Shown: positions 232 to 45,135 of the stretch, one piece after another
Layout of the letters: the number at the start of each line of letters is the position of its first letter
Numbering within the stretch: position 1 is the first letter of the stretch
From: Clostridia bacterium
GTDB lineage: Bacteria; Bacillota; Clostridia; Oscillospirales; CAG-272
Assembly (NCBI GenBank): GCA_017961575.1
Contig: JAGCXA010000046.1
Location: forward strand, 1-51,667
Length of the DNA: 51,667 nucleotides
Direction: 5' to 3'
Notes under the pieces: model-generated
Database searches by the model: none
Seen by the model: the letters and a program-made list of their open reading frames with translations, nothing else
What the model was told of the DNA's origin: nothing
Position numbers and translations under genes: made by a program

Positions 232-320
232 CTTCCATAATCCATTATGGAAGTTCTTTGCCCCGCTTTCCTTACCGCGCCCGCCTGTGGGATGCGGGCG
301 ACGCCACCAAGAAAGCGGGA
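232..320 (-). repeat. 3'-end structured element, copy A (downstream of spoVAE)
   Basis: Read on the minus strand, this follows the spoVAE stop codon. It has a CCCGCTTTCTT...GAAAGCGGG stem (311-320 with 261-270) whose loop is enlarged by a nested hairpin. Next comes the invariant string GCAAAGAACTTC, then a second stem made by 244-253 and 232-241. Three further copies (6573-6610, 6834-6901, 45026-45135) share GCAAAGAACT and both stem positions but differ in stem sequence in a compensating way. It is probably a transcribed 3'-UTR element or terminator-like structure. ORFs reading through it are artefacts. Confidence 0.6.
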
Positions 321-346
321 CGCGTTCCCCCTCGTCCCCTCGCTCC

Positions 347-724
347 CTACGGGCGTTTCGGTTTCGCGTTGCAGAAGAGGGCGACGAGATAGCCGAAGCA
401 GAGGGCGGCGGCGGTGCCGCCGGAGGCGGCGGACAGCCCCCCGGTGAGGGCGCCGAGGAGCCCGGTTTCCGAGACGGCTTCGCGCACGCCGCGCGCGACG
501 TTCCCGCCGAACCCGACGAGGGGGACGGTGATCCCGCATCCGGCGAGGTCGACGAGCGGTTCAAAGACGCCGACGGCGCCGAGAAACACGCCCAGCACGA
601 CGTAGATCACGAGGATCCGCGCCGGGGTCAGTTTGGTCAGGTCGATCAGGAGTTGCGCCGCGAGGCAGATCAACCCGCCGAAGAGAAACGCGAACAGATA
701 ATCGAGCGGCGCTCCGAACATCAT
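347..724 (-). CDS. spoVAE: Stage V sporulation protein AE
   Basis: This is a 125-residue, very hydrophobic protein with about four membrane segments, the size and composition of SpoVAE (the SpoVAEb form). SpoVA proteins sit in the forespore inner membrane and form the channel that moves Ca-dipicolinic acid into the developing spore and out during germination. Glycine-rich segments such as GFGGNVARG and GALTGGLSAASGG match the family. The start ATG overlaps the spoVAD stop (ATGA), which indicates translational coupling as the last gene of spoVAC-D-E. A structured 3' element follows the stop. Confidence 0.93.
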   Translation of the reverse strand: MMFGAPLDYLFAFLFGGLICLAAQLLIDLTKLTPARILVIYVVLGVFLGAVGVFEPLVDLAGCGITVPLVGFGGNVARGVREAVSETGLLGALTGGLSAASGGTAAALCFGYLVALFCNAKPKRP

Positions 725-1755
725 TTATCCCCTCCGATCACACCCGATTCCAGCACGACGAGCGGAGCGATCCCGAGGATCGTACCGCCCTGCATCAGGT
801 TCGACGGACTCATCAAGGCGCCCGTGGCGATAAAGAGCATCCTGCGGATCTCCCCGCGTTCGAGGGCGGGCAAAAACAGGGCGGAAAGCACCGACGCGGA
901 GCATCCGCACCCCGAACCCCCCGCGTGAACGTCGGCTTTCAGAGGGTCGAAGAGCAGAACGCCGCAGTCGCGATGGCGTCCCGCGAGGTCGAGCCCGTTT
1001 TCGCGGAGCAGTTCGAGCAGGAGCGCGGAGCCCTCGGTCCCGAGGTCCCCGGTCACGATCCGGTCGTAGTCCGCCGGGGTCTCGTCCGCCGCCGAAAAAA
1101 ACCGGAGCAGCGTATCCGCCGCCGCCGGCGCCATCGCCGCGCCCATATTCGCGCCGTCCCTCACCCCGCTGTCGAGCACGCGCCCGACGAGCCCCGCCGT
1201 GATCCGCGCCGAGGTCGGCGCGACGTCCGACTCGTCCGCGCGGGCGAGCAGAAACGCGCCGCCCGCCGTCGCCGTCCATTGCGAGGTCGGGGTACGCTGA
1301 CCGCCGTATTCAAGCGGAAGCCGGAACTGCCGCTCCGCCGCCGCGTTGTGCGAGGTGGTCACGACGGCGGCGCGGGAGGTCTCGCGGGAAGCGTTGAGCG
1401 CGAGCGCGGCGAGGAGCAGACCCTCGCCGCAGGTCGAACACGCGCCGTAGAGCCCGACGTAGGGGACCCCCATCGAGCCGCAGCCCGCGGACGAGGCGAC
1501 GCATTGGTTTTGCAGATCGCCGGAGAAGAGCAGGTCGATTCCGTCCTGACTTTCACCCGCGCGGACAAGCGCGAGATTCAAAACCGTGCGGGAAAGCGAC
1601 TCCTCGCTCTTCTCCCAGGTATCGGCGCCGAAGCGGTCGGTCGGGTCGTGATAATCGAAGAGCGCGCCGAGAGGACCCTCGGCTTCCGCCCCGCCGACGG
1701 CGGCGGCGTGCGCGTAGATCGAGACGGGGCGTGGGAAACGAATGATACTGCGCAT
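721..1755 (-). CDS. spoVAD: Stage V sporulation protein AD
   Basis: The product has 344 residues, the usual SpoVAD length. SpoVAD is a soluble thiolase-fold protein that binds dipicolinic acid at the forespore inner membrane and works with SpoVAC and SpoVAE. Family segments seen include GSMGVPYVGLYGACST and the later TSHNAAAERQFRLPLEYGG and PTSQWTATAGGA. The start is the ATG at 1755 (MRSIIRF), preceded by GAGGTG. The open frame extends upstream to 2241, but that part is an Arg-rich shadow of spoVAC. The gene lies 8 bp after spoVAC and overlaps spoVAE by 4 bp. Confidence 0.95.
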   Translation of the reverse strand: MRSIIRFPRPVSIYAHAAAVGGAEAEGPLGALFDYHDPTDRFGADTWEKSEESLSRTVLNLALVRAGESQDGIDLLFSGDLQNQCVASSAGCGSMGVPYVGLYGACSTCGEGLLLAALALNASRETSRAAVVTTSHNAAAERQFRLPLEYGGQRTPTSQWTATAGGAFLLARADESDVAPTSARITAGLVGRVLDSGVRDGANMGAAMAPAAADTLLRFFSAADETPADYDRIVTGDLGTEGSALLLELLRENGLDLAGRHRDCGVLLFDPLKADVHAGGSGCGCSASVLSALFLPALERGEIRRMLFIATGALMSPSNLMQGGTILGIAPLVVLESGVIGGDK

Positions 1756-1763
1756 AATGCACC

Positions 1764-2210
1764 TCACAGAAAGAGTCCGACGACCCACAGGATCACGCCG
1801 TAAAGCGCGCCCGAGAGCGTCGCGTAGAGCAGAACAGGACCCGCGACAGCGAAGATTTTTGCACCCACCCCCATCACGAGCCCCTCGCTCTTGCAGTCGA
1901 CGGCGGGCGAGACGACGGCGTTGGCGAACCCGGTCACCGGCACCAGCGTCCCCGCCCCCGCGATCCGCGCGATCGAATCGAAGACCCCGATCCCGGTCAG
2001 GACGGCGGAGAGAAAGATCAGCGACACGGTGACCAGCGTCCCCGCCTCGCGCTCGGCGAGCCCGGCGGACAGATAGAGCGAGAGGAGCAACTGCCCGAAG
2101 GCGCAGATCCCGCCCCCGAAGAGAAAGGCGAAAAAGCAGTTCTTTGCAAGCGGGGAGCGCGATTCGCGCTCCTTGACCCGGTCGAGATACCGGCGACGGT
2201 CGAAGTTCAT
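1764..2210 (-). CDS. spoVAC: Stage V sporulation protein AC
   Basis: This 148-residue integral membrane protein has a charged N-terminus and about four hydrophobic segments. It matches SpoVAC, the mechanosensitive-channel-like component of the dipicolinic acid channel. Recognisable segments include FLFGGGICAFGQ, GIGVFDSIARIAGAGT and VPVTGFANAVVSPA. A strong GGAGGA ribosome site lies just before the ATG. It is the first gene of spoVAC-D-E. Such operons are normally read by forespore sigma-G. A weak candidate lies upstream, but I could not assign it with confidence. Confidence 0.95.
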   Translation of the reverse strand: MNFDRRRYLDRVKERESRSPLAKNCFFAFLFGGGICAFGQLLLSLYLSAGLAEREAGTLVTVSLIFLSAVLTGIGVFDSIARIAGAGTLVPVTGFANAVVSPAVDCKSEGLVMGVGAKIFAVAGPVLLYATLSGALYGVILWVVGLFL

Positions 2211-2296
2211 CTGTTCCTCCGTGCGTTGGTTTTTCTTTCAATGTGTCCCGCCGCCGCCCGGATTATGCGTGAACCGTCGGTTTTTTCGCCGAAGTC

Positions 2297-2325
2297 TTGA
2301 CAAGCAAATCGGCAGGAAGTATAAT
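2297..2325 (+). promoter_or_regulatory. Sigma-A promoter of alaS
   Basis: A TTGACA (2297-2302), a 17-bp spacer and TATAAT (2320-2325) lie 52 bp upstream of alaS. No T-box leader (specifier loop or AGGGTGG motif) is visible between it and the gene, unlike many Firmicute aminoacyl-tRNA synthetase genes. Confidence 0.85.
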
Positions 2326-2377
2326 ATATATTCGGAAAAATATGTAGTACCGGAACAATCCGGAGAAGGACAAACAG

Positions 2378-4996
2378 ATGAAATGGACCTCACTTAACGA
2401 CCTGCGGGAAAAGTACCTCTCCTTTTTCGAGACGAAGGGGCATCTCCGCCTGCCGAGTTTTCCGCTCGTGCCGATCGGGGACAAATCGCTTCTGCTCATC
2501 AACTCGGGCATGGCGCCGATGAAGAAGTACTTTACCGGGGAGGAAGAGCCTCCGAGACGGCGGGTGACCACCTGCCAGAAGTGCATCCGCACCCCCGACC
2601 TCGAACGGGTCGGACACACGGCGCGGCACGGCACCTTTTTCGAGATGCTCGGGAACTTCTCGTTCGGCGACTACTTCAAGCGCGAGGCGATTCCGTGGGC
2701 GTGGGAGTTTCTGACCTCTCCCGATTGGCTCGCGATCCCGGAGAATCTGCTCTGGCCGTCGGTTTACGAGGGGGATCAGGAGGCGTTCGATCTCTGGCAC
2801 GACGTGATCGGCGTTCCCGCCGAGCGCATCACCCGGCTCGGCAAAGCCGATAACTTCTGGGAGCATGGTTCGGGTCCCTGCGGCCCCTGCTCCGAGATCT
2901 ACTTCGACCGCGGCGAGAAGTACGGGTGCGGGTCTCCCGACTGCCGTCCCGGCTGTGACTGCGACCGGTATATGGAGATCTGGAACAACGTCTTTTCGCA
3001 GTTCAACAACGACGGGAACGGCAACTATACCGAACTGAAACAGAAGAATATCGATACCGGCATGGGACTCGAACGGCTCGCCTGCGTGATGCAGGGGGTC
3101 GACAATATGTTCGAGGTCGACACAAACCGCCGGATCCTCGACGCCGTGTGTCAGGCGGCGGGGAAGACCTACGGGCAGAACGCCGCGAACGACGTCTCGA
3201 TCCGCGTCTGCACCGACCACATCAAGTCGGCGATGTTTATGATCGCCGACGGGGTGATCCCGTCGAACGAGGGGCGCGGCTACGTGCTTCGCCGGATCAT
3301 CCGGCGCGCCTGCCGGCACGGGAAACTGCTCGGGATCGACCGTCCGTTCCTCGTCGGGCTCTGCCGCGTCGCGATGCAGGAGAACGAGGGGGCGTACCCC
3401 GAACTCTCGACCAAGCGCGACTATATCCTCAAAGTGCTGTCGATCGAGGAGGAGCGTTTCGACGCGACGATCGACGCCGGCACGGCGATGCTCTCCCGCC
3501 TGACCGACGAGGCGGCGGCGGGGAACGGGACGGTTTCGGGCGAGGACGCCTTCCGTCTCTACGACACCTACGGCTTCCCGATCGACCTGACGCGCGAGAT
3601 CGTCGAGGAGAAGGGGCTTTCGCTCGACGAAGAGACCTTCCGCCGTCTGATGGGCGAACAGCGCGAGCGCGCCCGCGCCGCGCGGGGGAACATCGGCGGC
3701 TGGTCCGAGGGCTCGAAGAACCTGCTGTCGAAACTCGATAAGACCGAGTTCCTCGGTTACGACAAGTACGACTGCGAGGCGAAGGTGATCGCGCTCGTCG
3801 CCGAGAACGAATTGATCGACGTCGCGACCGAGGGCGAGGTCTCGGTGATCTGCGACCGCACCGTCTTCTACGGAGAGGGCGGCGGACAGGTCGGGGATAC
3901 CGGAACGCTGAAAACCAAAGGCGGGGTCACGCTCGCCGTCACCGATACCAAGAAGAGCGACGGGGTGTATATCCACTTCGTCACCGTCTCGGACGGGTCG
4001 ATCGCGGTGGGCGATACCGTAACGCTTTCGCTCGACGCCGCCCGTCGCGACGCAATCCGCCGGAACCACTCGGCGTGCCACCTGCTGCAAGGCGCGCTCC
4101 GCTCGACCCTCGGCAACCACGTCGAGCAGGCGGGCTCTTACGTCGACGAGCATCGCTGCCGCTTCGACTTCTCGCACTTCGCCGCGCTGACCCCCGCCGA
4201 GATCGCGGAGGTGGAAGCGAAGGTGAACGGGGCGATCCTCCGGGACATTCCGGTCGAAACGCAGCTGACCGATATGGAGAGCGCGAAGAAGTCGGGCGCG
4301 ATGGCGCTCTTCGGCGAGAAGTACGGCAAGGTCGTCCGGATGGTGAAGATGGGCGACGCCTCGACCGAACTCTGCGGCGGAACGCACGTCTGTTCCACCG
4401 GACGGATCGGGCTCTTCCGCATCACGTCGGAGACCTCGGTCGCCGCCGGCGTCAGACGGATTGAGGCGGTCACCGGGTTCGGCGTGCTGGCGCTGCTCTC
4501 GGAGAAGGACGAGTTGATCCGCGAGACGGCGAAGGAACTGAAAGCCGTCAACCCGCTCGATATCGCCAAACGCGCCGCGCAGATCGGCGAGGAACTGAAA
4601 GCCACCCGCCGCGCGCTCGAATCCGCCGAGGCGAAACTCGCGACGGCGGACCTCGATAAACTGCTCGCCTCCGTGAAGACGGTCGGAGAATACGAACTGC
4701 TGACGGCGAAACTTACGATGAAGCCCGACGCGGTGCGGACGCTCTGCGACAGTCTCAAAGAGAGACGCCCGAAGATCGTCGCGGTCTTCGCCGCCACGTC
4801 CGACGGTAAACTCAACTTCGTCGCCGCCTGCGGCGCGGACGCCGTGAAAGCCGGCGCGCACGCGGGTAAGATCCTCGGAACCGTCAGCGCGATCACCGGA
4901 GGCAAGGGCGGCGGACGACCCGACAGCGCGATGAGCGGCGGACGCGATCTCGATAAGATCGACGAGGCGCTCGCGGCGGTCGAGGGCTTGCTCTGA
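2378..4996 (+). CDS. alaS: Alanine--tRNA ligase
   Basis: The product has 872 residues, full length for bacterial AlaRS. It charges tRNA-Ala in the cytoplasm and hydrolyses Ser/Gly-tRNA-Ala. The class II catalytic core occupies roughly residues 1-240 (MAPMKKYF, RHGTFFEMLGNFSFG, GMGLERLACVMQG). The editing domain shows the zinc ligands HSACH and CGGTH. The C-terminal DHHA1 domain ends in a Gly-rich GGKGGGRPDSAMSGG stretch. The start follows GGAGAAGG. The gene has its own sigma-A promoter and a GC-rich hairpin after the stop. Confidence 0.98.
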   Translation: MKWTSLNDLREKYLSFFETKGHLRLPSFPLVPIGDKSLLLINSGMAPMKKYFTGEEEPPRRRVTTCQKCIRTPDLERVGHTARHGTFFEMLGNFSFGDYFKREAIPWAWEFLTSPDWLAIPENLLWPSVYEGDQEAFDLWHDVIGVPAERITRLGKADNFWEHGSGPCGPCSEIYFDRGEKYGCGSPDCRPGCDCDRYMEIWNNVFSQFNNDGNGNYTELKQKNIDTGMGLERLACVMQGVDNMFEVDTNRRILDAVCQAAGKTYGQNAANDVSIRVCTDHIKSAMFMIADGVIPSNEGRGYVLRRIIRRACRHGKLLGIDRPFLVGLCRVAMQENEGAYPELSTKRDYILKVLSIEEERFDATIDAGTAMLSRLTDEAAAGNGTVSGEDAFRLYDTYGFPIDLTREIVEEKGLSLDEETFRRLMGEQRERARAARGNIGGWSEGSKNLLSKLDKTEFLGYDKYDCEAKVIALVAENELIDVATEGEVSVICDRTVFYGEGGGQVGDTGTLKTKGGVTLAVTDTKKSDGVYIHFVTVSDGSIAVGDTVTLSLDAARRDAIRRNHSACHLLQGALRSTLGNHVEQAGSYVDEHRCRFDFSHFAALTPAEIAEVEAKVNGAILRDIPVETQLTDMESAKKSGAMALFGEKYGKVVRMVKMGDASTELCGGTHVCSTGRIGLFRITSETSVAAGVRRIEAVTGFGVLALLSEKDELIRETAKELKAVNPLDIAKRAAQIGEELKATRRALESAEAKLATADLDKLLASVKTVGEYELLTAKLTMKPDAVRTLCDSLKERRPKIVAVFAATSDGKLNFVAACGADAVKAGAHAGKILGTVSAITGGKGGGRPDSAMSGGRDLDKIDEALAAVEGLL

Positions 4997-5003
4997 AACG
5001 ACG

Positions 5004-5023
5004 GTCCGCCCCTCGGGGCGGAC
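5004..5023 (+). terminator. Hairpin after alaS
   Basis: A perfect GTCCGCCCC / GGGGCGGAC stem with a TC loop starts 7 bp after the alaS stop. The following sequence (TGCCTTGTATT) is only weakly T-rich, so termination may be partial. Confidence 0.5.
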
Positions 5024-5108
5024 TGCCTTGTATTAACCCGCGTTTTCCGTTAGTCACCGCCGATCCGGCGGCGTTTGTAAGAAACCGAACCGAAAGGACG
5101 TCGAAGCG

Positions 5109-6566
5109 ATGAACGATCAAAAACCCCCCGTGACCGACCGCGTCGCGGCGGGGGCGAAGCGACCGCCCTTTTTGGTTCGGTTTTTTCTGCCCCGATATAT
5201 GGTCCGGGACGACAAAAAACTCGGCGACGACTTCGGGACCAAACAGATCTACCTGACCTTCCTCCTCCTGGCGTGGCCGGCGCTCGCGGAACAGGTGCTG
5301 ACCGGGGTCATCAACTTCGTCGACACGCTGATGGTGAGTTCCGTCGGCGACGCGGCGGTGGCGGCGATCGGGCTGACCATCCAGCCGCGCATGATCTTTC
5401 AGGTGGTGCTGGTCGCGATCGCGACGGCGGTGACCGCCGTGGTCGCCAGACGAAAGGGACAGGGGGATAGGGACGGCGCGAACCGGGTGCTCGGGGCGAT
5501 GCTCCCGATCGTGGTCGGGGTCGCCGCGGTGTTCTTCGTCGTCTCGTGGTTCTTCGCGCAGCCGATCCTCACGTTCATCGGGGCGAAGGAAGATACGATC
5601 GCGGACGCGACGAGTTATTACCGGATCACGATGTTCGGACTGATCTTTCTCGGGGTGTCCCTGACCCTGAACGGGGCGCAGCGCGGCGCGGGGAAGACCC
5701 GGATCGCGATGGTGACGACCATGACGGCGAATATCGTCAACTGCCTGTTCAACGCGCTCCTGATCCACGGGCTGTGGATCTTTCCCCGGTTGGAGGTGAC
5801 CGGGGCGGCGATCGCCACCGTGATCGGGCAGTTTACCGCGATGGTCATCAGCGTCGCGTCGGTGCGGCGGAAGAACGGGTATCTGTTCCTGAAACTGTCC
5901 CTGCTCTTTAAGATCGACCGCAAGGTGGTTGGCCCCGTGTTCTTCGTGATGAGCGGCGCGCTGGCGGAACAGCTCTTTCTTCGGGTCGGGTTCTTTACCT
6001 TCGCGAAACTGGTCGCGGGGCTCGGAACGCTGGATTTCGCGACGCATCAGATCTGTATGACCATCCTGAACCTGTCGTTTACCGTCGGGGACGGATTGGC
6101 GATCGCCTCGTCGGCGCTCGTCGGACAGAATCTCGGGATGCGGCGACCCGACCGGGCGCTCGTGTTCGGGAAGGTGGCGCAACGGATCGGGCTTGCGTTC
6201 GCCGCCGTGCTCTGCGCCGCCGTCGCGGTGTTCCGTCGCGGGATCGTCGGGTGGTTCACGGATACCCCGGAGGTTCTGCAAAAGGGCGGGAATATTATGC
6301 TGATGATCTCGATCGTCCTCCTGTTCCAGATCCAGCAGGTGATGTTCGGCGGGACCCTCCGCGGCGCGGGCGATACGAGATTTATGGCGGCGGTCTCCCT
6401 GCTCACCATCGGTATTATGCGCCCCGGACTCACCTTCGTTCTGATGCACCTGACCCCGCTCGGGCTCTACGGCGCGTGGATCGCCGTGCTGACCGATCAG
6501 ATCATCCGCGCACTGTTCGCCGGAATCAGATTTTACAGAGGAAAGTGGGCAAGAATCAAGTTATAA
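5109..6566 (+). CDS. MATE family efflux transporter
   Basis: This 485-residue protein has about 12 membrane helices arranged as two related halves, typical of MATE Na+/H+-coupled drug exporters in the cytoplasmic membrane. Family features include WPALAEQVLTGVINFVDTLMVSSVG near the first helix (shown in part), LNGAQRGAGKTR in the first half and FGGTLRGAGDTRFM at the equivalent place in the second. The RBS AAGGAC precedes the ATG. It is monocistronic, or read through from alaS. The substrate cannot be told from sequence. A copy of the 3'-end element starts 7 bp after the stop. Confidence 0.93.
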   Translation: MNDQKPPVTDRVAAGAKRPPFLVRFFLPRYMVRDDKKLGDDFGTKQIYLTFLLLAWPALAEQVLTGVINFVDTLMVSSVGDAAVAAIGLTIQPRMIFQVVLVAIATAVTAVVARRKGQGDRDGANRVLGAMLPIVVGVAAVFFVVSWFFAQPILTFIGAKEDTIADATSYYRITMFGLIFLGVSLTLNGAQRGAGKTRIAMVTTMTANIVNCLFNALLIHGLWIFPRLEVTGAAIATVIGQFTAMVISVASVRRKNGYLFLKLSLLFKIDRKVVGPVFFVMSGALAEQLFLRVGFFTFAKLVAGLGTLDFATHQICMTILNLSFTVGDGLAIASSALVGQNLGMRRPDRALVFGKVAQRIGLAFAAVLCAAVAVFRRGIVGWFTDTPEVLQKGGNIMLMISIVLLFQIQQVMFGGTLRGAGDTRFMAAVSLLTIGIMRPGLTFVLMHLTPLGLYGAWIAVLTDQIIRALFAGIRFYRGKWARIKL

Positions 6567-6572
6567 GGGTAC

Positions 6573-6610
6573 GCGCGCTTTCTTTCGGAGAAAGCGCGGC
6601 AAAGAACTCT
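6573..6610 (+). repeat. 3'-end structured element, copy B (downstream of the MATE gene)
   Basis: The stem CGCGCTTTCT / AGAAAGCGCG is followed by GCAAAGAACT. This is the plus-strand, sense-oriented counterpart of the minus-strand copies at 232-320, 6834-6901 and 45026-45135. It lies directly after the MATE stop codon, so both convergent genes of this intergenic region carry their own copy. This copy is shorter and lacks a clear second stem. Confidence 0.55.
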
Positions 6611-6615
6611 GTATA

Positions 6616-6660
6616 CGGAGAGGTCGCACGAAATCGTGCGACCTCTCCGGTTCTTTTATC
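6616..6660 (+). terminator. Rho-independent terminator
   Basis: A 15-bp perfect stem (6616-6630 with 6635-6649, loop AAAT) is followed by GTTCTTTTAT. It terminates transcription from the MATE gene after its 3'-end element. Confidence 0.8.
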
Positions 6661-6727
6661 GGCGCGGCTCGCTCTCCGCTCCGCCGCGCCTTGGTTTTAC
6701 GGAACCGCGTTGCTTTTGAAACACACC

Positions 6728-6765
6728 GCCGCCTGCCGATGTCGGCAGGCGGCGCGTTCTTTTTC
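6728..6765 (+). terminator. Second strong hairpin with T-run
   Basis: The stem GCCGCCTGCCGA (6728-6739) pairs with TCGGCAGGCGGC (6742-6753) and is followed by GCGTTCTTTTT. A third hairpin, GGCGCGGC...GCCGCGCC, lies between this and the previous terminator. The whole 6567-6907 gap is therefore a row of hairpins with no gene. Confidence 0.6.
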
Positions 6766-6770
6766 CAAAA

Positions 6771-6901
6771 GGAAAGCGGACGGGGGAAGTCCCGTTTTTG
6801 AAACCGTGACTCGGCGAGTCACGAGCCGAGTCACAACTTCAATCTTCATTGAAGTTCTTTGCCCCGCTTTCTTTCAAGAAAGCGGGAACCCCCGTCTTTC
6901 C
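6771..6901 (-). repeat. 3'-end structured element, copy C (downstream of the SLOG gene)
   Basis: On the minus strand, 6 bp after the SLOG stop codon, this reads CCCGCTTTCTT hairpin (6863-6886), then GCAAAGAACTTC, then a second stem (6848-6856 with 6835-6843). A third stem, GTGACTCGGC / GCCGAGTCAC, follows. An outer closing stem is formed by CCCCCGTCTTTCC (6889-6901) and 6771-6786. Copy D has an equivalent outer stem with different bases, which argues for selected RNA structure. Confidence 0.6.
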
Positions 6902-6907
6902 GTCCCC

Positions 6908-7411
6908 TCACAACCCCGACAGCAGGTCGGGCTTCGCGGGAGCGGTATTGATAACAGGCAGACCCCGGGCGGCGGCGTAGCGGACGGTATAGGCGGTGCC
7001 GCCGGTTTTTTCGGTGAGGTAGCAGAGGCAGACGCCGCTATGCTCGACGAGGTATCGGTTCCTTGCCTGCATACATCCGGGTCGATAGGCGGGGGCGAGT
7101 GTGACGACCTCGCTTGCGCGGGAGAGGATCGCGTCGTAGCGCGCGGCGTCGCGCGCGTTCCAACCGCGCGTCTGATCCGCGCAGGGCCGCACGATCACAA
7201 GCGAAACGCCGGGGATCTCGTCGGCGATTGCAAGCACCGTTTCGGCGGCGAGGGTATCGAACCCGAGCGCGCCGCCGGAGAGGAACACGGTGATCCCCTC
7301 CTCCCGACAGAGGCGCAGTACCTCGCGCCGGAGCGCCGCCGCGACGGCGGGCAGATCGTCCGCCGGGATGCGCCGATGCCCGGTGAAACAGCAGGTATTC
7401 TTCGCGTCCAA
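6908..7411 (-). CDS. SLOG-family (YpsA/DUF1273-like) protein
   Basis: The protein has 167 residues. It carries the SLOG nucleotide-binding signatures of the YpsA/DUF1273 group: CCFTGHRR at residues 7-14, FLSGGALGFDTLAAE, and the late EKTGGTAYTVRYA. SLOG proteins bind nucleotides or nucleotide-derived ligands; the cellular role of this group is poorly defined. The predicted start is TTG at 7411, right before the conserved CCFTGHR, with only a weak RBS. It lies 41 bp downstream of rnr on the same strand, the place where smpB often sits, so it is probably cotranscribed with secG-rnr. Confidence 0.82.
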   Translation of the reverse strand: MDAKNTCCFTGHRRIPADDLPAVAAALRREVLRLCREEGITVFLSGGALGFDTLAAETVLAIADEIPGVSLVIVRPCADQTRGWNARDAARYDAILSRASEVVTLAPAYRPGCMQARNRYLVEHSGVCLCYLTEKTGGTAYTVRYAAARGLPVINTAPAKPDLLSGL

Positions 7412-7452
7412 ATCAAAAACCCCCTATCAAAGCGTTCCGAAACGGAAAACGG

Positions 7453-33412: not shown

Positions 33413-33419
33413 TAAGGAC

Positions 33420-37922: not shown

Positions 37923-37955
37923 ATCATAACGGACGAGGATTGAAGAAAGATTGAA
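37923..37955 (-). promoter_or_regulatory. Response-regulator-type direct repeat and -10 of the beta-helix lipoprotein gene
   Basis: On the minus strand two TTCAATC motifs, 11 bp apart (37955-37949 and 37944-37938), lie in place of a -35 upstream of a TATGAT -10 (37928-37923). The distance from repeat to -10 is identical to that at 39964-39996. Eleven-bp-phased direct repeats are typical of OmpR/PhoB-family binding sites. Confidence 0.55.
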
Positions 37956-37968
37956 GGATCCGGTTTTT

Positions 37969-39255: not shown

Positions 39256-39928
39256 CACGGCACCTCAATTCGTAGCCAATCCCGCGCAGCGCCTTGATTT
39301 CGCACCGGGACTCCACGAAGGCGAGTTTTTTGCGCGCGAAGGACATATACACCTCGACGTTGTTGTATTCCGAATCGTTTTCGTAGCCCCACACTTTCAG
39401 CGCGATCTGCTCGCGGGTGAGGACCCGTCCCCGGTTGGCGATCAGGTATTCCAGAATGCGGAGTTCCTTTTCGCCGAGGCGAACGCTCTGCCCGTTTTCG
39501 CACGTCAGAACGGCGGACCGGACGTCGAGCGTCAGATCCTCGAAGGTGAGACTTCCGTCCCCGGTCGGCAGGTTGCGCCGACCGAGCGCGCGCAGACGGG
39601 CAAGCAGTTCCGCCGTCATAAAGGGCTTGGTCAGATAGTCGTCGGCGCCGCTGTCAAGCCCCTCCACTTTGTCGTCGAGTTCGCTTTTCGCCGTCAGCAT
39701 CAGGATCGGGGTGCGGACGCCCGCCGCGCGTGCTTTCTTCGCGACGACGTAACCGTTCATTCTCGGCATCATCACGTCGAGCACCGAGAGGTCGTAGACG
39801 CCGCTTTCAAGCTCGTCGAGCGCGCTCTCGCCGTCCTCGACCGCCGTGACGTCGTATCCCTCCTGGCGCAGGATCTCGCACAGCGCCCGGTTCATTCTCT
39901 TTTCGTCTTCGGCAAGCAATACCTTCAT
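39245..39928 (-). CDS. OmpR/PhoB-family response regulator
   Basis: This 227-residue protein has a receiver domain with acidic pocket AEDE (residues 6-9), phospho-Asp in SVLDVMMPR (about 51), Thr in MLTAKS and Lys in LTKPF. A winged-helix DNA-binding domain follows from about 130 (RLGEKELRILEYLI, VYMSFARKKL, RGIGYELR). It pairs with the overlapping histidine kinase. The ATG at 39928 has GGAGGTG upstream; a start four codons earlier is less likely. Direct repeats before this gene suggest autoregulation. Confidence 0.95.
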   Translation of the reverse strand: MKVLLAEDEKRMNRALCEILRQEGYDVTAVEDGESALDELESGVYDLSVLDVMMPRMNGYVVAKKARAAGVRTPILMLTAKSELDDKVEGLDSGADDYLTKPFMTAELLARLRALGRRNLPTGDGSLTFEDLTLDVRSAVLTCENGQSVRLGEKELRILEYLIANRGRVLTREQIALKVWGYENDSEYNNVEVYMSFARKKLAFVESRCEIKALRGIGYELRCRDVR

Positions 39929-39963
39929 CCGACCGAACACCTCCGTATGGGTTTTCGTATGCG

Positions 39964-39996
39964 ATGATACGCGTTCAACCTTGAAAAAAGATTGAA
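39964..39996 (-). promoter_or_regulatory. Response-regulator-type direct repeat and -10 of the two-component operon
   Basis: On the minus strand TTCAATC (39996-39990) and TTCAAGG (39985-39979), 11 bp apart, precede TATCAT (39969-39964). Sequence and spacing match the site at 37923-37955, supporting one regulator for both promoters. Confidence 0.55.
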
Positions 39997-40012
39997 AACC
40001 GAAAGCGGAAGA

Positions 40013-40558
40013 TCAGAGCGCGGATTCGACCGCTTTCCTGACCTCTTTCATATCGACGGTCGGCTCGAAGCGCGCGATCACCCCGCCCTCGCGGTCGACG
40101 AGGAACTTCGTGAAGTTCCATTTGATATACGCCTTGTCGCCGAACTTCTTGTTGTTCTTCTTGGAAAACTTGGAAAGGAAGGAGTTTTTGATTCCCTTTC
40201 CGAATCCGTCAAAGGGCTTTTCGGTCGCAAGGTAGACGAACAGGGGATCGGCGTCGTCGCCGTTGACGTCGATCTTCGCGAATTGCGGGAAATCGGTGCC
40301 GAACTTGATCGTGCAGAAATCGTGGATCTCCTCGTCGCTCCCGGGCGCCTGCCCCGCGAACTGGTTGCAGGGGAAGTCGAGAATCTCGAAGCCCCGGTCT
40401 TTGAGGTCGCGGTACATCTCTTCGAGCGGGTCGTGGTGCGGGGTGAAACCGCAGCCCGTCGCCGTGTTGACGATGAGCAGCACCTTGCCCCGGTAGTCGG
40501 AGAGGGAAACCTCGTTCCCCTGACGGTCCTTGACTTTGAAATCGTAAACGGTTTTCAT
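40013..40558 (-). CDS. Glutathione peroxidase family protein (thiol peroxidase type)
   Basis: This 181-residue thioredoxin-fold peroxidase carries the peroxidatic Cys in NTATGCGFTPH (about residue 36), the Gln in the FPCNQFAGQ motif (about 70) and the Trp/Asn pair KWNFTKFLVD. It is the cysteine form, not selenocysteine. In such bacteria it most likely uses thioredoxin. It reduces hydroperoxides in the cytoplasm. It has its own promoter with a perfect palindrome between -35 and -10, suggesting repression, perhaps by a redox regulator. The response-regulator operon follows 84 bp downstream. Confidence 0.93.
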   Translation of the reverse strand: MKTVYDFKVKDRQGNEVSLSDYRGKVLLIVNTATGCGFTPHHDPLEEMYRDLKDRGFEILDFPCNQFAGQAPGSDEEIHDFCTIKFGTDFPQFAKIDVNGDDADPLFVYLATEKPFDGFGKGIKNSFLSKFSKKNNKKFGDKAYIKWNFTKFLVDREGGVIARFEPTVDMKEVRKAVESAL

Positions 40559-40633
40559 TTTCTTATCCTCCTTGTCGCGTAAACCGGACGGTTGCGCGCC
40601 AAATCACGCTTCTCTCCGCCCATCCGCACCTCT

Positions 40634-40662
40634 ATTATATCGCACGCGATATAATTTGTCAA
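40634..40662 (-). promoter_or_regulatory. Glutathione peroxidase promoter with palindromic operator
   Basis: On the minus strand TTGACA (40662-40657), a 17-bp spacer and TATAAT (40639-40634). The perfect inverted repeat ATTATATCGC-AC-GCGATATAAT arms (40634-40643 and 40646-40655) fill the spacer and include the -10, an ideal repressor position. It matches neither PerR nor Fur consensus closely. Confidence 0.65.
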
Positions 40663-40691
40663 GGGGCTTGCAAAATATTTTTTGCAAAACC

Positions 40692-40719
40692 AAAAACCCG
40701 ATCCGTATTTTGGATCGGG
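40692..40719 (-). terminator. Terminator of the ADP-ribosylhydrolase operon
   Basis: On the minus strand CCCGATCC / GGATCGGG with a 7-nt loop is followed by TTTTTGGTTTT, 11 bp after the stop codon. Confidence 0.85.
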
Positions 40720-40729
40720 CTTGGTCTTT

Positions 40730-41659
40730 CTATTCGGTTTCGGTTCGGTTTTCGTCGCGGCGGAACAGTCTTTCGATCATCACGCCGAAATCGTGGTCGT
40801 GTTCCCACTTCGCGCGGTAGGCGTACCAGCGTTTCACGACGTCGTAGAGCCGTTCGTCAAGATAGGAGAGCGCGGCGTTCGCGATGGGTTCGGGGATGCC
40901 GTACGCCGCCTCGGCGACGCTGCCGGTGATCGCCGCCAGCGTATCGCTGTCGCCGCCGAGCGAGATCGCGTTTCTGATCGCGTCCTCGAAGTCGGCGCTT
41001 TCGAGAAACGCGATGAGCGCCTGCGGCACGGTGTCCTGACAGGTCTCGTTGAACTTGTAAAACGGGCGGATCTCGTCGAGCGTGCGCGAGAGGTTATAGC
41101 CGAAGCGGCTTTCAAGATTTTCTTTGATCCGCTTTTTACATTCGGCGGGGTCGTCGTTGATCGGCTTTTCGTAGTCCCGGTGCCAACCGCCGAAATAAAA
41201 GCGCGCGAGGAAGATGGCGTAGGCGGTCGCGCCCGCCCCCTTGATCCCCTCCGGGTGATTGTGCGTCACGGCGGCGGAACGCTCCGCCAACGCGTAGCCG
41301 TTGTGAGGGAAGCCGCCCGTCCGCGCCGCATAGCCGCAATCCATCATCCAGCCGCAGGGCGAGACGCGCATCGCGGAGCCGTTGCCGAAACTGTTGTAGG
41401 GTTCGCGGTCGTCGGAAAACAGCCAGCCCGAAAACCGCCCGCCGTAACCGGCGTCGGGGTAGAGCCGACCGAGCCGCTTCATTTCGTCGATGAAGTCGTC
41501 GGGCTTCCCGCCTCGCATCACCGCCTCGGCGACGGCGCAGGTCATCACCGTGTCGTCGGTGAAAAAGCAGTCGTCGCGAAAAAGGGGGAAGTCCTTGGTT
41601 TTGATATTGTTGAATTCGTAAACAGAGCCGACGATATCGCCGACGATCGCTCCGAGCAT
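40730..41659 (-). CDS. ADP-ribosylglycohydrolase family protein
   Basis: This 309-residue protein has an all-alpha ADP-ribosyl-(dinitrogen reductase) glycohydrolase fold. The metal-binding signature FFTDDTVMT is at about residue 33 and the second cluster GGDSDTLAAITGS near 240. Such enzymes remove ADP-ribose from proteins, nucleic acids or small molecules; the target is unknown. The ATG at 41659 (MLGAIVGD) has GGGAG upstream. It is the last gene of a minus-strand operon, 27 bp after the phosphodiesterase gene. Confidence 0.9.
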   Translation of the reverse strand: MLGAIVGDIVGSVYEFNNIKTKDFPLFRDDCFFTDDTVMTCAVAEAVMRGGKPDDFIDEMKRLGRLYPDAGYGGRFSGWLFSDDREPYNSFGNGSAMRVSPCGWMMDCGYAARTGGFPHNGYALAERSAAVTHNHPEGIKGAGATAYAIFLARFYFGGWHRDYEKPINDDPAECKKRIKENLESRFGYNLSRTLDEIRPFYKFNETCQDTVPQALIAFLESADFEDAIRNAISLGGDSDTLAAITGSVAEAAYGIPEPIANAALSYLDERLYDVVKRWYAYRAKWEHDHDFGVMIERLFRRDENRTETE

Positions 41660-41686
41660 AGAATCACTCCCTTCTTTCAACGACGT

Positions 41687-42235
41687 TCAGGCGTTCAGAT
41701 CAAACGAGTTGTATTCCTCGCCCGCAAGGGTCATCCAGCGGAAGACGCCGCCTTCGAGCGTCATATAGCCGCGGGGCGACCCCTCCTTCGGGATCGAGAC
41801 CGAGCCGGGATTCAGGCAGACGACGCCGAGAACCGTCTCCGAGAGCGGGACGTGCGTGTGCCCGTAGAGCAGGACGTCGCCCTCTTTCAGCGGGGGAAGG
41901 TTGTCTCGGTTATAAACGTGCCCGTGCGTCGCAAAGACCGTGCGGTTTCCCTCGGAAAGCAGGCAGTAATCCCCGAGAATCGGGAAGTTCAGCATCATCT
42001 GATCGACCTCGGCTTCGCAGTTCCCGCGCACCGAGAGGATCTCGCCCCGCCGGGCGTTCAAGAGTTCCGCGACCTTCTTCGGCGCGTAGCCGTCGGGCAG
42101 GTCGTTGCGCGGCCCGTGGTAGAGCAGATCCCCGAGCAGGAGCAGCCGATCCGCCCCCTCCCGGTCGTACGCCGCGAGCAGTTGTTCCGTGTATTTCGCC
42201 GATCCGTGCAGATCGGACGCGATCAGGTATTTCAT
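41687..42235 (-). CDS. YfcE/MJ0936-family phosphodiesterase
   Basis: This 182-residue compact metallophosphoesterase has all five metal motifs: SDLHGS (8-13), LGDLLYHGPRND (about 34), RGNCEAE (about 70), ATHGH (about 102) and GHTHVP (about 125). YfcE-type enzymes hydrolyse phosphodiester model substrates; the natural substrate is unclear. It is cotranscribed with the ADP-ribosylhydrolase, so both may process phosphorylated or ADP-ribosylated small molecules (inference). Confidence 0.9.
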   Translation of the reverse strand: MKYLIASDLHGSAKYTEQLLAAYDREGADRLLLLGDLLYHGPRNDLPDGYAPKKVAELLNARRGEILSVRGNCEAEVDQMMLNFPILGDYCLLSEGNRTVFATHGHVYNRDNLPPLKEGDVLLYGHTHVPLSETVLGVVCLNPGSVSIPKEGSPRGYMTLEGGVFRWMTLAGEEYNSFDLNA

Positions 42236-42277
42236 CGGATGTATAATCTCCCTTATTCGGTTTTGTCGGGGGCGCGG

Positions 42278-42469
42278 TCAGTCGTCGCCGAAGAGGTCGC
42301 TTTCGAGGTCCTCGTCCCAGAGGATCTGTTCCATCTCCTCGTCCTCGTCGACGGGGACGTTAAAGCCGACGTCTTCGTCCGCTTCGGTGTTCCAATCGTC
42401 GCTGAGATCGTCGTCCTCGCTGAGGAAGATGTCCTCTTCGTAGCAGTCGTTTCTTTCGTCGTCAAACAT
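42278..42469 (-). CDS. Possible internally started 63-residue acidic protein
   Basis: It begins at MFDDERND with GGAAGGAG 7 bp upstream and a complete sigma-A promoter 52 bp upstream. It shares the frame of the longer 42278-42949 ORF. About half of its residues are Asp/Glu. Function unknown. Independent expression is a prediction from these signals. Confidence 0.45.
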   Translation of the reverse strand: MFDDERNDCYEEDIFLSEDDDLSDDWNTEADEDVGFNVPVDEDEEMEQILWDEDLESDLFGDD

Positions 42470-42949
42470 AGGGTAACTCCTTCCGATCTTGTTTTCGTCG
42501 AAAGGTTGCGTCCAATCACTATTATAGCAACTTTCCGACGGGTTTTCAAGTAGGTCCTTTTCGGCTTCGGGAACGCGGATCCGCGCGTCTTCAAATCCGA
42601 ACGAGAAGACGGTCTCCCCGGAAACGAGGGCTTCCGTTTCCATATAGTCGGCAAGCGCCGCTGCCTCGGCAAACGCCTTGCAGTCCGGGAAACAGTAGAT
42701 CCACGCCCGCACCCGCAGGCACAGCCCGGTCCCGATCAGGGGGTCGAACTCGATCGCGTGCGTAGCGTCGGGCGCCGCCTCGCGGATCACCGCAAGAATC
42801 CGGTCGACCGAGCGGGCGATGCGGGAATAGTTGGCGGGATGGATGATGAAGACCGTGTCTTCGGGGATCCCCTCCGCCGCCTCTTCGAGGAAGCGCAGGA
42901 GCGCGGCGATGTCCGGGGCGTGTTCGTTTGGGTCGGTTTTGTCGTTCAT
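42278..42949 (-). CDS. Unrecognised protein with a highly acidic C-terminal region
   Basis: The product has 223 residues. Residues 1-145 look globular with a possible nucleotide- or ligand-binding alpha/beta pattern (TVFIIHPANYSRIARSVDRI); no family was recognised. Residues 161-223 are extremely acidic (EEDIFLSEDDDLSDD). Codons for the junction contain a full TTGAAA-17-TATAAT promoter, and Met161 has a GGAAGGAG RBS. The C-terminal part may therefore be a separate gene that has become fused in frame. The start overlaps the zinc-ribbon gene stop (ATGA). Confidence 0.55.
   Translation of the reverse strand: MNDKTDPNEHAPDIAALLRFLEEAAEGIPEDTVFIIHPANYSRIARSVDRILAVIREAAPDATHAIEFDPLIGTGLCLRVRAWIYCFPDCKAFAEAAALADYMETEALVSGETVFSFGFEDARIRVPEAEKDLLENPSESCYNSDWTQPFDENKIGRSYPMFDDERNDCYEEDIFLSEDDDLSDDWNTEADEDVGFNVPVDEDEEMEQILWDEDLESDLFGDD
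42521..42549 (-). promoter_or_regulatory. Internal promoter inside the acidic-protein ORF
   Basis: TTGAAA (42549-42544), a 17-bp spacer and TATAAT (42526-42521) on the minus strand, within codons for about residues 135-144 of the longer ORF. Confidence 0.65.
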
Positions 42950-43287
42950 TGTGTCCCTCCGTTTTTCTTTTTTGCTTTGCGTTTCCGTCTGCAGTCGGGG
43001 CAACGTTTTGGTTCCGTTAGCTTGTTCTTTTCAAAATAGACCTGTTCCCCTCCGCCGAACCGAAAGGTCGCTCCGCAGTCGCAGCAGACGATGGGCTTGC
43101 TTTTCCTCTTTTTCCGTTTGACGGTTTGTGTCACGACGGGCGCCGGTTTGATCGGCGTGATGCGAAGAACGCTTTTGTACGTCAGCACGCTGCTGACCTC
43201 CGGGGGCGTTTCTACCTCCTTTCTTCGAAGCATGTGACACTCTTCTGCAGCTTCAACTAAGTCTTCCCAGAGTTTACTGAGTCCCAT
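42946..43287 (-). CDS. Zinc-ribbon domain protein
   Basis: This 113-residue protein has a helical N-terminus (LWEDLVEAAEECHML), a basic linker (VKRKKRKSK) and a C-terminal probable zinc ribbon. In the ribbon, CCDCGATFRF and KRCPDCRRKRK supply four Cys ligands, with the GEQVYFEK segment between, as in the zf_Tbcl-type family. A role in nucleic-acid or protein binding is likely but unproven. It is the first gene of the operon running to 40730, and its stop overlaps the next start. Confidence 0.75.
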   Translation of the reverse strand: MGLSKLWEDLVEAAEECHMLRRKEVETPPEVSSVLTYKSVLRITPIKPAPVVTQTVKRKKRKSKPIVCCDCGATFRFGGGEQVYFEKNKLTEPKRCPDCRRKRKAKKKNGGTQ

Positions 43288-43325
43288 GTTTTTGTTCCTT
43301 TCCGTTTTTTTGTTTTGGGGTCGCT

Positions 43326-43545
43326 TTGGTAGCGGCGGCGGCGGGGTGGTGCGGGGGTCGCCCTTGCGGGCGGCTTCGCGCGCCCCCTATATAGGGAGAA
43401 ACTGCAACCCCTTTAGGGGTTCGGTTTTTTTGCGCGTCCCCTCTTGGTAGCCCGGGTGCGGGGGTCGGGGGGGTCTCGCGTGCGCGCGTACGCGCCCCCA
43501 TATATATGGTCTGATCGTCAACCCCCTTCGGGGGTTAGGTTGCCG
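43326..43545. repeat. Tandem pair of ~115-bp GC-rich units
   Basis: The unit is present twice (43326-43443 and 43444-43545). Matching landmarks are TTGGTAGC (43326, 43444), CGCCCCC followed by a TATATA palindrome (43381, 43493) and an AACCCC/GGGGTT hairpin (43406, 43520). The palindromes differ between units but stay self-complementary (CCCTATATAGGG versus CCATATATATGG). A minus-strand terminator-like hairpin with a T-run lies at 43553-43581. No gene is credible in 43288-43694; open frames here are low-complexity. Confidence 0.6.
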
Positions 43546-43643
43546 GACAAAGAAAAACGCCCCGCGCACAAGGCACGGGGCAAACGTTATCGACGGATAA
43601 CGCGGGGAATTGTTTTTTCTTTTGATTTTGTGTCCGTCTGTGC

Positions 43644-43672
43644 TTGACAAACCCTTTTTTCCGTGTTATAAT
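43644..43672 (+). promoter_or_regulatory. Promoter of tRNA-Pro
   Basis: TTGACA (43644-43649), a 17-bp spacer and TATAAT (43667-43672), consensus, 22 bp before the tRNA. Confidence 0.9.
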
Positions 43673-43694
43673 ACTCCCTGCGAAAAATGAATAC

Positions 43695-43771
43695 CGGGGT
43701 GTGGCTCAGTTTGGTAGAGCGCTTGGTTCGGGACCAAGAGGCCGCTGGTTCGAATCCAGTCACTCCGACCA
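43695..43771 (+). tRNA. tRNA-Pro (anticodon CGG)
   Basis: A full cloverleaf: acceptor CGGGGTG/CACTCCG, anticodon loop TTCGGGA giving CGG with G37, T-loop GTTCGAATCC, encoded CCA. It reads CCG. Its 3' 19-22 nt are repeated at 43943 and 44137. Confidence 0.95.
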
Positions 43772-44155
43772 AACAGAGGGCGGGGACATCGGTCCCCGCC
43801 CTCTGTTTGTCCGTAGCGCTTTGCTCGAACCAGCGGACTTTTCACCGCGGAGTGGTGAAAAGTCTTGCGACCCGCCGTCCGATACAGCCGCCTTTTCAAA
43901 ACCGTGGGGCGGGACGCGCGGGTAGCGCCCCGAAGGGGTGCGTCGAATCCAGTCACTCCGACCAAACAGAGGGCGGGGACATCGGTCTCCGCCCTCTGTT
44001 TGTCCGTAGCGCCTTGCTCGAACCAGCGGACTTTTCATCGCGGAGTGGTGAAAAGTCTTGCGACCCGCCGTCCGAAACAGTCGCCCTTATAAAAAAGTAG
44101 GGCGAGACGCGCTGGTAGGGCTCCGACGGGAGCCCGTCGAATCCAGTCACTCCGA
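43750..44155 (+). repeat. Two tandem 193/194-bp repeats seeded by the 3' end of tRNA-Pro
   Basis: TCGAATCCAGTCACTCCGA, the tRNA T-arm and acceptor end, occurs at 43750 (in the tRNA), 43943 and 44137. Between them two near-identical units of 193 and 194 bp carry the terminator hairpin and GGACTTTTCA...TGAAAAGTC. Each also carries an inverted copy of part of the T-arm (TCGAACCAGCGG). The last copy ends at the stop codon of the XRE gene. This resembles serial duplication at a tRNA attachment site. No integrase or coding frame is present in 43772-44158. Confidence 0.75.
43771..43808 (+). terminator. Terminator of tRNA-Pro
   Basis: A 17-bp perfect stem (43771-43787 with 43792-43808) ends in TGTTTGT. 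It is included in the tandem repeat and so occurs again, with one base change, near 43964-44002. Confidence 0.8.
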
Positions 44156-44158
44156 TTA

Positions 44159-44716
44159 TTACAGTTCGATTGCATTTTCCCGGTTCTTATATGCTTCGAA
44201 TATTTTTTCCAAATCCGCGCCCGCTTCCTCTTTGGTGTTATAATCGCCAATAAAAGCGTCTTTCCCAGGCCATATCCAATAATGTTCGGGCTGACCAGGC
44301 GAGTTTCGGCTTTTCACGATTCCGAATCCGGAGAACCTGACGACCGTTTTTGTCTTTTTGCTGAACACCGTCAAAGAATACCCGTCGCCTGTCTGTCCGT
44401 TCAGATAGGACGGCATCAATTCGTCCAAGTTTTCTTCAAGCAGGTCGGGCAACTTCTCTTCAAGTGCGGCGGCGACCGCCTCCCGGACGGTATCGGAGAG
44501 ATCTTTTTGTTTTTCTTTCGGTTTGATCCCGAAAAGTTCGTCGAGCGTGATCCCGAGCGCGGCTGCGATCGGGGGGATCAGATCCACGCCCGGGGAAGAT
44601 AATCCGACCTCCCATTTGGAAACCGAACGACCGGTTACACCGACCGATTCGCCGAGTTGTTCCTGCGTGAGACGTTTTTCTTTCCGGTATTTTGCGATTT
44701 GTTGACCGATATTCAC
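44159..44716 (-). CDS. XRE-family transcriptional regulator
   Basis: This 185-residue protein has an N-terminal Cro/CI-type helix-turn-helix (residues about 7-61: IAKYRKEKRLTQEQLGESVGV, shown in part, and SVSKWEVGLSSPGVDLIPPIA). A helical linker and a C-terminal domain of unknown fold follow (about 105-180, YSLTVFSKKTKTVVRFSGFG, EHYWIWPGKDAF). Base composition is less GC-rich than the flanks. The start is GTG at 44716 with GGGAGGA upstream. Its 3' end abuts the third tRNA-Pro-derived repeat, so it may be the relic of an inserted element. Confidence 0.85.
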   Translation of the reverse strand: MNIGQQIAKYRKEKRLTQEQLGESVGVTGRSVSKWEVGLSSPGVDLIPPIAAALGITLDELFGIKPKEKQKDLSDTVREAVAAALEEKLPDLLEENLDELMPSYLNGQTGDGYSLTVFSKKTKTVVRFSGFGIVKSRNSPGQPEHYWIWPGKDAFIGDYNTKEEAGADLEKIFEAYKNRENAIEL

Positions 44717-44748
44717 GTTTTTATCCTCCCGTTTCTGTTTTCAATTTG

Positions 44749-44777
44749 ATTATACCAAAAAAGCGGGGGACAGTAAA
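44749..44777 (-). promoter_or_regulatory. Promoter of the XRE gene
   Basis: TTTACT, a 17-bp spacer and TATAAT read on the minus strand, 32 bp upstream of the GTG start. Confidence 0.75.
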
Positions 44778-44834
44778 CACATCATTCGGTGAACGTCGAC
44801 AAAAAAGATTGCGAAAAGCAGAACGAGCCGGAGA

Positions 44835-45006
44835 GTTTCCTCGCGGAAACGGAGAGATGCGGGCGCGTTGCGCCCTGTCGATATACTGCGCAGCGCGCCG
44901 TTCGATATAATTGCCGCGTCGCGGCAATTTCGATATGCGTCGCGCCTGTGCCACGACGCTCGAAATAACGCCCGCCGAAAGTTCGGCGGGCGTTAAGTTT
45001 ATAGAC
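44835..45006. repeat. Array of hairpins separated by CGATAT/CGAAAT linkers (copy 2)
   Basis: Hairpins have arms at 44835-44840/44845-44850, 44861-44866/44870-44875, 44888-44891/44895-44898, 44910-44917/44921-44928, 44938-44942/44954-44958 and 44969-44979/44982-44992. The linkers CGATAT (44879, 44903, 44931) and CGAAAT (44961) separate them. The array ends with ATAGAC and AAAGCAAAG, as does copy 1 at 13-106, and likewise runs into a 3'-end element. No gene was found in 44717-45163. Confidence 0.65.
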
Positions 45007-45025
45007 CGAAAGCAAAGAGAGCCGA

Positions 45026-45135
45026 GAGAGGTCCGTTTTTGAAACCGCGCACACGAGGAACGAGTGGTGCGCTAACTTCATCCCATAATGAAGTTCTTTG
45101 CTCCGCTTTCTTTCAAGAAAGCGGACGTACCTCTC
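45026..45135 (-). repeat. 3'-end structured element, copy D (downstream of argD)
   Basis: On the minus strand, about 28 bp after the argD stop: outer stem half ACCTCTC (45129-45135, pairing with GAGAGGT at 45026-45032), CCGCTTTCTT hairpin (45103-45124), GCAAAGAACTTC, a second stem (45088-45095 with 45074-45081) and a third GCGCAC...GTGCGC stem. The order of parts is the same as copy C, with substitutions on both sides of the stems. Confidence 0.6.

Follow-up and report, generated by a model that had tools for sequence, protein, structure and literature searches.

Small repeats are common at the 3′ ends of bacterial genes. The pneumococcal BOX repeats are dispersed, modular and hairpin-rich, number 125 in one genome, contribute the stop codon to 36 of the 58 coding sequences (CDSs) that they overlap, and are reported to have inverted repeats and target duplications in their own genome (PMC3049150). 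Repetitive extragenic palindromic elements (REPs) of the GTAG/CGTC type lie mostly downstream of genes, between tandem or convergent open reading frames and near the 3′ end, and their termini sometimes supply a stop (PMC3733652); they span 20–40 bp, have tagged ends and are hypothesized to be moved by specific transposases. In the Bacillus cereus group, the bcr1–bcr18 repeats reside in untranslated regions (UTRs), with bcr1–3 resembling miniature inverted-repeat transposable elements (MITEs) and bcr10 and bcr18 being likely RNA elements (PMC3446304). Here we analysed a structured element present in four copies at gene 3′ ends in a 51,667-nt contig of a Clostridia bacterium from the CAG-272 lineage (JAGCXA010000046.1, positions 1 to 51,667; hereafter the window). 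The element belongs to a dispersed repeat family, and it is probably a BOX- or MITE-like modular, hairpin-rich repeat that is now resident in the 3′ UTRs of a clade of five related species.

A sequence-only reading of the window had placed these four copies, in sense, behind the stops of spoVAE, a MATE gene, a SLOG gene and argD, and had taken them for a functional RNA motif rather than a repeat. We located all four behind the named stops. A covariance model built from nine copies gave 44 matches at E ≤ 0.1 in the window’s genome (G000; 1.88 Mb in 67 contigs), of which the best 29 were kept; the 15 others were weak or were opposite-strand matches to the first hairpin (P1) only. Together with four related species (33 copies in G021, 11 in G031, 24 in G044 and 26 in G059, all scanned with stricter filters that miss weak copies), the family comprises 123 copies. 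Ten of 60 genus genomes, G000 included, have a match at E ≤ 1e-4: these five with many copies and five others with one or two weak ones. By SpoVAE, the five many-copy species are mutually closest, at 88–92% identity to G000 as against 76% for the next genome. The model search, which the sequence-only reading had proposed as a check, thus returned the copies and their strong covariation, but as members of a dispersed repeat family, which leaves the choice of RNA motif over repeat unsupported.

Read in sense, the element consists of a purine leader (RRGGGG..CG), the P1 hairpin (CCGCTTTCTT..AAGAAAGCGG) with a loop that is either short or long and GC-rich, a single-stranded GCAAAGAAC, a second stem (P2), a long variable hairpin of three classes (P3), a tail in one of two haplotypes (CGGTTTCAAAAACG or CGGTTCTATAGCCG) and a pyrimidine stretch that stops near CTTTGCTTTTGG. 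Its constant core is made up of the leader, P1 (CTTTCTT..AAGAAAG) and the single strand GCAAAGAACT, the linker. By information content, the borders fall ~10 nt 5′ of P1 and ~42 nt 3′ of CGGTT (123 leaders, 100 tails), and the 29 model matches in G000 are 95–192 nt long without overlapping any called gene. Exact GCAAAGAACT occurs 34 times in G000, with 26 distinct P1-bearing copies among 30 loci inspected. Searches against Rfam returned no family above its gathering threshold within the element: the above-threshold matches in the window were three tRNAs outside the copies, no more than one cobalamin riboswitch and one tRNA, neither of them at the core, passed over 17 loci carrying it in intact or diverged form, and sub-threshold matches were confined to two stretches.

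Stems P1–P3 covary strongly. Over 115 distinct rows (alignment A5, with eight window-genome loci, L052–L059, left out), 388 cells were changed on both sides of a pair against 107.6 ± 11.9 in shuffles, a result favoured by the fitting of the alignment to the tested structure; 19 of 29 pairs had changes on both sides, 94.0% of cells were paired and slid controls all scored far lower. The fixed single-stranded bases and the P2 stems that the sequence-only reading had quoted as different yet paired held up, the latter exactly. In P1 it is the four outer pairs that vary, those further in being nearly fixed in sequence. G-U pairs fill just 8 of 1,039 paired cells in P3 by manual count, and because they are so rare the P3 stems look exchanged as whole palindromes rather than evolved stepwise through G-U; their near-absence fits exchange at the DNA level as well as RNA. 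The covariation is that of a conserved hairpin and does not distinguish RNA from DNA as the selected molecule.

Two further pairings were rejected. An outer stem between leader and tail, described for the copies behind the SLOG gene and argD, is present in both (GACGGGGG/CCCCCGTC and GAGAGGT/ACCTCTC, respectively) but is not general over 98 copies: its mean duplex energy was −21.4 against −21.9 for tails swapped within a genome (187 of 200 swaps equal or better), and its longest perfect stem 4.58 against 4.70 with same-genome partners (279 of 300 swaps equal or longer). An extra tail hairpin owed its covariation to only two linked haplotypes (TCAAAAA and CTATAG-type), which do not amount to independent evidence.

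The element is strongly tied to the ends of genes. In G000, a sense gene stands to the left of 27 of 29 copies and ends within 70 nt at 26 of them; across the five species, 101 of 120 decidable copies follow a sense stop at ≤70 nt, 81 by automatic gene calls and 20 by eye. The automatic calls for all 123 copies gave 86 sense, 28 antisense and 9 without a left gene, with 81 of the 86 having their stop within 70 nt and some overlapping by ≤20 nt. Reading the 37 copies not called sense by eye yielded 20 sense copies (a frame ends within 60 nt), 14 exceptions and 3 undecidable cases (contig edge or no frame), so that a sense left gene stands at any distance from 106 of 120 copies. The strict sense orientation that had been claimed therefore describes most of the clade, with 14 exceptions at five loci, and does not extend to other Clostridia, in which orientation is mixed or mostly antisense. 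At exceptional loci L042, L051 and L284 and their counterparts, the element is close to the 5′ end of a divergently oriented gene, and promoter-like sequence separates the two (by eye). Each of six convergent gene pairs inspected holds two copies, every copy adjoining its own gene. At one convergent locus (apparently L037, L062 and L077 in G000, G044 and G059), comparison of G000 with G044 suggests by eye that the element pair and its intervening terminator have flipped relative to the genes, as recombination across the inverted P1–linker repeats would produce.

An intrinsic terminator follows within 250 nt in 40 of 112 testable copies, against 3.0 expected and 7 in the upstream antisense control; in G000 alone the corresponding values are 11 of 26, 0.7 and 1. 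The element is thus often found between stop codon and terminator and, because a terminator often follows it, is most likely transcribed as part of the 3′ UTR. That these elements are themselves plain transcription terminators converging on a common sequence is scarcely credible: such terminators would also sit behind stops and in convergent pairs, but a hairpin with a T-tract lies inside only 6 of 123 copies, the terminators detected downstream are separate, and the fixed linker has no role in that model.

Comparison among the species showed that place is kept while content is exchanged. At least 23 of the 29 copies in G000 adjoin a left-hand gene that also carries a copy in one of the other species (21 at sense 3′ ends and two at exceptional loci), where a rough estimate from ~30 copies and ~1,700 genes puts the chance expectation at about two over four species. 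Body similarity behind the linker, for locus sets assembled by hand from gene-context readings, was 0.59–0.68 at the same locus against 0.62–0.66 for random copies in nine species pairs, some higher and some lower; the pair G000–G021 reached 0.76 against 0.65 and includes one nearly identical copy (G000_2/G021_31). Mean body similarity was 0.660 for paralogues, 0.652 for orthologues and 0.641 for unrelated copies. The P1 inner stem and CAAAGAACT stay fixed while the inner hairpins differ nearly as much as in random copies: 111 of 123 copies have an exact CAAAGAACT, a conservation overestimated by a search model that includes the linker, whereas identity at four-fold sites in the genes alongside is only 0.63–0.72. 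Presence also varies, with an element at the spoVAE locus in G000, G044 and G059 but, up to a distance of 230 nt, none in G021 or G031, and an element at argD in G000 and G021 but none in G031 (the G044 and G059 contigs end inside the gene). Among genus relatives outside the clade, short diverged cores directly follow the stop of argD in G020 (L243) and that of spoVAE in G005 (L211).

Two alternatives turn on these patterns. We regard as doubtful a cis-acting 3′ UTR RNA motif acting in binding, processing or stability, selected for itself rather than born of a transposon, and multiplied by duplication and recombination. Its absence behind spoVAE and argD in the species just named, the wholesale module swaps and nearly G-U-free P3, which resemble DNA-level palindrome exchange, and a core that elsewhere occurs in mixed orientation and inside a MITE all speak against such a motif, even as covariation, sense bias, recurrence at the same genes from species to species, a linker fixed despite diverged neutral sites and a place before terminators speak for it. 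The second alternative, that the copies are neutral relics of an extinct MITE and survive solely through vertical descent and gene conversion, would account for the turnover of modules and for paralogous, orthologous and unrelated bodies being almost equally similar, and the argument from linker constraint is weakened by the composition of the search model. We consider this reading unlikely, since copies persisting at the same genes, their core intact, though about one-third of neutral sites have diverged, suggest constraint, and conversion alone leaves the sense bias unexplained.

Beyond the clade, the core pattern was found in at least 116 stretches of named genomes, among them Oscillospiraceae metagenome-assembled genomes (MAGs), Pseudoflavonifractor, Gemmiger, Neglecta, Ruthenibacterium and rumen MAGs, as well as in 4 viral contigs among the matches listed. 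One carrier, a Pseudoflavonifractor capillosus strain (L120), is in culture. The bodies attached to the core differ from those of the clade. Its distribution is patchy, with exact matches in 2 of 291 genomes sampled from the class (own genome included) and yet 63 in G060. Left genes in this wider set were antisense in 44 cases, sense in 42 and lacking in 5, a rough count over 80 of the 116 stretches that includes loci of three clade genomes and relies on small training sets. G060 itself is mostly antisense (21 of 26 left genes), with P1 often a few nucleotides from the gene start region. In some lineages the core stands in tandem, two to four times (L141, with a 76-bp period; L160; L125). A structured-looking conserved body of >200 nt (GGATATAGT..CTGCAATTCCAT..GAGC(T)..) also holds the core, bounded by terminal repeats that differ (L094, L124, L138 and L150; L097 and L158), and could itself be a structured element not yet described.

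A MITE form was seen in lineage G065, where the core lies inside a 239–305-bp element with inverted repeats that starts with TACTAATCTCA and ends with TGAGAATAGTA. Its terminal motif was counted 58 + 64 times and a reversed control 1 + 0 times. Among 28 script-matched elements that hold the core (most matched on both strands and were counted once), 23 are flanked by identical 3-bp duplications, all of them TNA: TGA in 9, TAA in 6, TCA in 4 and TTA in 4. Two copies outside the pattern match have flanks TTA/TCA, not identical (L388), and TTT/TTT (L400). Five of the 13 duplicated elements with enough flank lie exactly on a called stop codon, four in sense and one in antisense; of 22 copies, 14 have a sense gene on the left, 7 an antisense one and 1 none, and the start of 8 falls precisely at a sense stop in the gene calls. 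As the TNA target includes TAA and TGA, it could explain the position of the element at stop codons. Palindromic modules (GCTCAACAAGTTGAGC) occur at two different places within the G065 element, the same modular habit as in the window’s clade. By eye, lineage G066 and a related lineage have similar bodies with other terminal repeats (7 and 4 copies), and end types among the G065 and G066 elements are TACTAATCTCA-type and GTAAATGATGATTAAC-type. Random orientation and a transposable element with terminal repeats, which the sequence-only reading had set against its proposal, are thus closely approached in other Clostridia and in G065. The clade element shares the core with the G065 MITE, and homology between the two beyond it could at most be supposed.

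Within the clade, the short, multicopy, non-coding habit of a MITE is evident in the 29 copies of G000, and several results weigh against a mobile origin with later residence in 3′ UTRs. Leader and tail do not form terminal inverted repeats, pairing no better than swapped partners in 98 copies, and no target duplication was seen by eye, with the tail end recognizable in 31 of 123 copies. Y1_Tnp (PF01797) is absent from G000, G021, G031 and G044, with one in G059; DDE_Tnp_1 is absent from G000, the one genome in which it was sought; and PF13340 and PF13586 are absent from all five genomes. The sole IS5-type transposase found in G065 was rejected as the mobilizer, its terminal inverted repeats being different. 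No transposase with matching ends was found in a search of four Pfam families and one end pattern in incomplete assemblies, which leaves other families unsearched. Five copies have their nearest called sense stop at 104, 170, 180, 1,128 and 1,408 nt, and 14 copies at five loci, three of these loci common to three to five species, have no sense gene behind them. Insertion hot spots could also give conserved positions, and the inflated linker conservation noted above counts on the same side. As no inverted repeats or duplications were seen in the clade, nor a candidate transposase among the families searched, movement there has ceased or is undetectable.

Duplication of TNA fits a DDE transposase rather than a Y1 transposase. 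We presume that the IS1031-type group of the IS5 family duplicates TNA. The G065 duplications and the four clade genomes lacking Y1_Tnp make it very improbable that the element is of the REP or bacterial interspersed mosaic element (BIME) type, moved on single-stranded hairpins by a REP-associated tyrosine transposase (RAYT, a Y1 transposase), even though its short palindromes, gene 3′ ends and convergent pairs match those of REPs (PMC3733652). Nor was a GTAG/CGTC tag noticed at the hairpin foot in the copies inspected, which were not scanned systematically.

We therefore return to the modular repeat as the probable account, and its history may be pictured as follows. The repeat, a constant core with exchangeable palindromic modules, would have spread by transposition in trans, possibly through a TNA-targeting DDE transposase of the IS1031-like kind presumed above. 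Insertion into TAA or TGA would duplicate the stop codon and so be harmless, placing copies behind stops. In an ancestor of the five-species group, some 30 copies would have settled behind stop codons in sense and then stayed there by inheritance, the core kept under constraint while recombination between copies or re-insertion replaced the inner hairpins.

What the resident copies might do is suggested by their place. A structured, possibly protein-bound tail of the mRNA between stop and terminator could affect 3′-end decay or processing, and the sense-only bias in the clade could arise because the core has a selected RNA role or because its antisense form is selected against. An RNA function is plausible, and domestication at the RNA level is a real possibility. 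A more specific version is tentative, if possible: that a transposon-derived core (P1 and the GCAAAGAACT strand) was domesticated as a general, protein-recognized 3′ UTR module that marks the mRNA ends of the same genes across species, its remaining hairpins being free to exchange, and that other Clostridia lineages recruited this core independently.

In the window, the copy behind spoVAE (134..325, −) has a long-loop P1 at 262–319, the linker at 252–261, P2 at 232–253 and a class-2 P3 broken by another repeat. This second repeat (CGCGAACCCC(C)AACGCTTACTTCGTGCGCG.CGGGGAACCCCTAT) is nested at 134–230 (−), and runs of it stand behind other copies (L027 and L028). The copy behind the MATE gene (6568..6706, +) has P1 at 6574–6598, the linker at 6599–6608 and a class-3 body formed by a GGAGAGGTCGCACG hairpin and a GC-rich hairpin; RNA folding predicts its linker to be paired with GGTTCTTT. 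Convergent with it, the copy behind the SLOG gene (6792..6892, −) has P1 at 6863–6886 and the linker at 6853–6862, followed by P2, a class-1 P3 and the tail GGTTTCAAAAACGG. The copy behind argD (45033..45131, −) runs from P1 through the linker (45092–45101), P2 and a class-1 P3 to the tail, with a hairpin and then a T-rich stretch further 3′. Folding z-scores against shuffles ranged from −3.1 to −6.7 over the four stretches, the first copy being folded incompletely as 180–329 only. With at most one mismatch, GCAAAGAACT occurs 10 times in the window against 2.37 expected, a number reached in 0 of 100 shuffles. One of its five exact occurrences (2138..2147, −) lies within a CDS and lacks a P1 hairpin, and was set aside as a chance match; weaker model matches (≤25.8 bits), several of them on the opposite strand of the three copies other than that behind spoVAE, were likewise excluded.

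The genes upstream encode SpoVAE (347..724, −; PF03862), a MATE transporter (5109..6566, +; PF01554), a YpsA/SLOG-family protein (6908..7411, −; PF06908) and an ArgD-type aminotransferase (45164..46333, −; TIGR00707, 407.2 bits, slightly below the cut-off of 410.05). Elsewhere in the window, a protein at 44159–44716 (−) matches an RstR-family repressor at 56.7 bits, below the cut-off of 80. The genome seems rich in short palindromic repeats, and a further repeat, composed of ATATCGA..CGCCGTATATCGA palindromes, follows several elements (for example, at L019, L023 and L012).

No description of the element was found among the titles listed from the open PMC literature (sequence words, MITEs with these taxa, and repeats generally). 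With place and a short core fixed, about one-third of neutral sites changed and the rest swapped, the family offers a natural experiment on which part of a repeat is useful. The MITE form, with its TNA target, supplies a simple reason for repeats to sit precisely at stops. Through the core, repeat families from many gut and rumen Clostridia are connected, and no description of these families was among the titles listed either.

In aggregate, the described families each share part of this behaviour. MITEs derived from the IS5 family (IS1031-type) are alike in the 3-bp TNA duplication seen in lineage G065 and unlike in that no autonomous partner with the same ends was found. The bcr repeats have the UTR location in common and, as far as the cited account of them extends, the tie to stop codons belongs to the clade element only. 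REPs, as presented in the portions of the work cited above, share the 3′-end habit; the clade element has about three hairpins and no tag that we noticed, and four of its five genomes lack Y1. BOX (boxA-B-C) appears closest in behaviour, being modular, structured and a supplier of stop codons, a likeness drawn from architecture. It differs in having the inverted repeats and target duplications that the clade element lacks, and a strict sense orientation is not reported for it in the sections of PMC3049150 on which this comparison draws.

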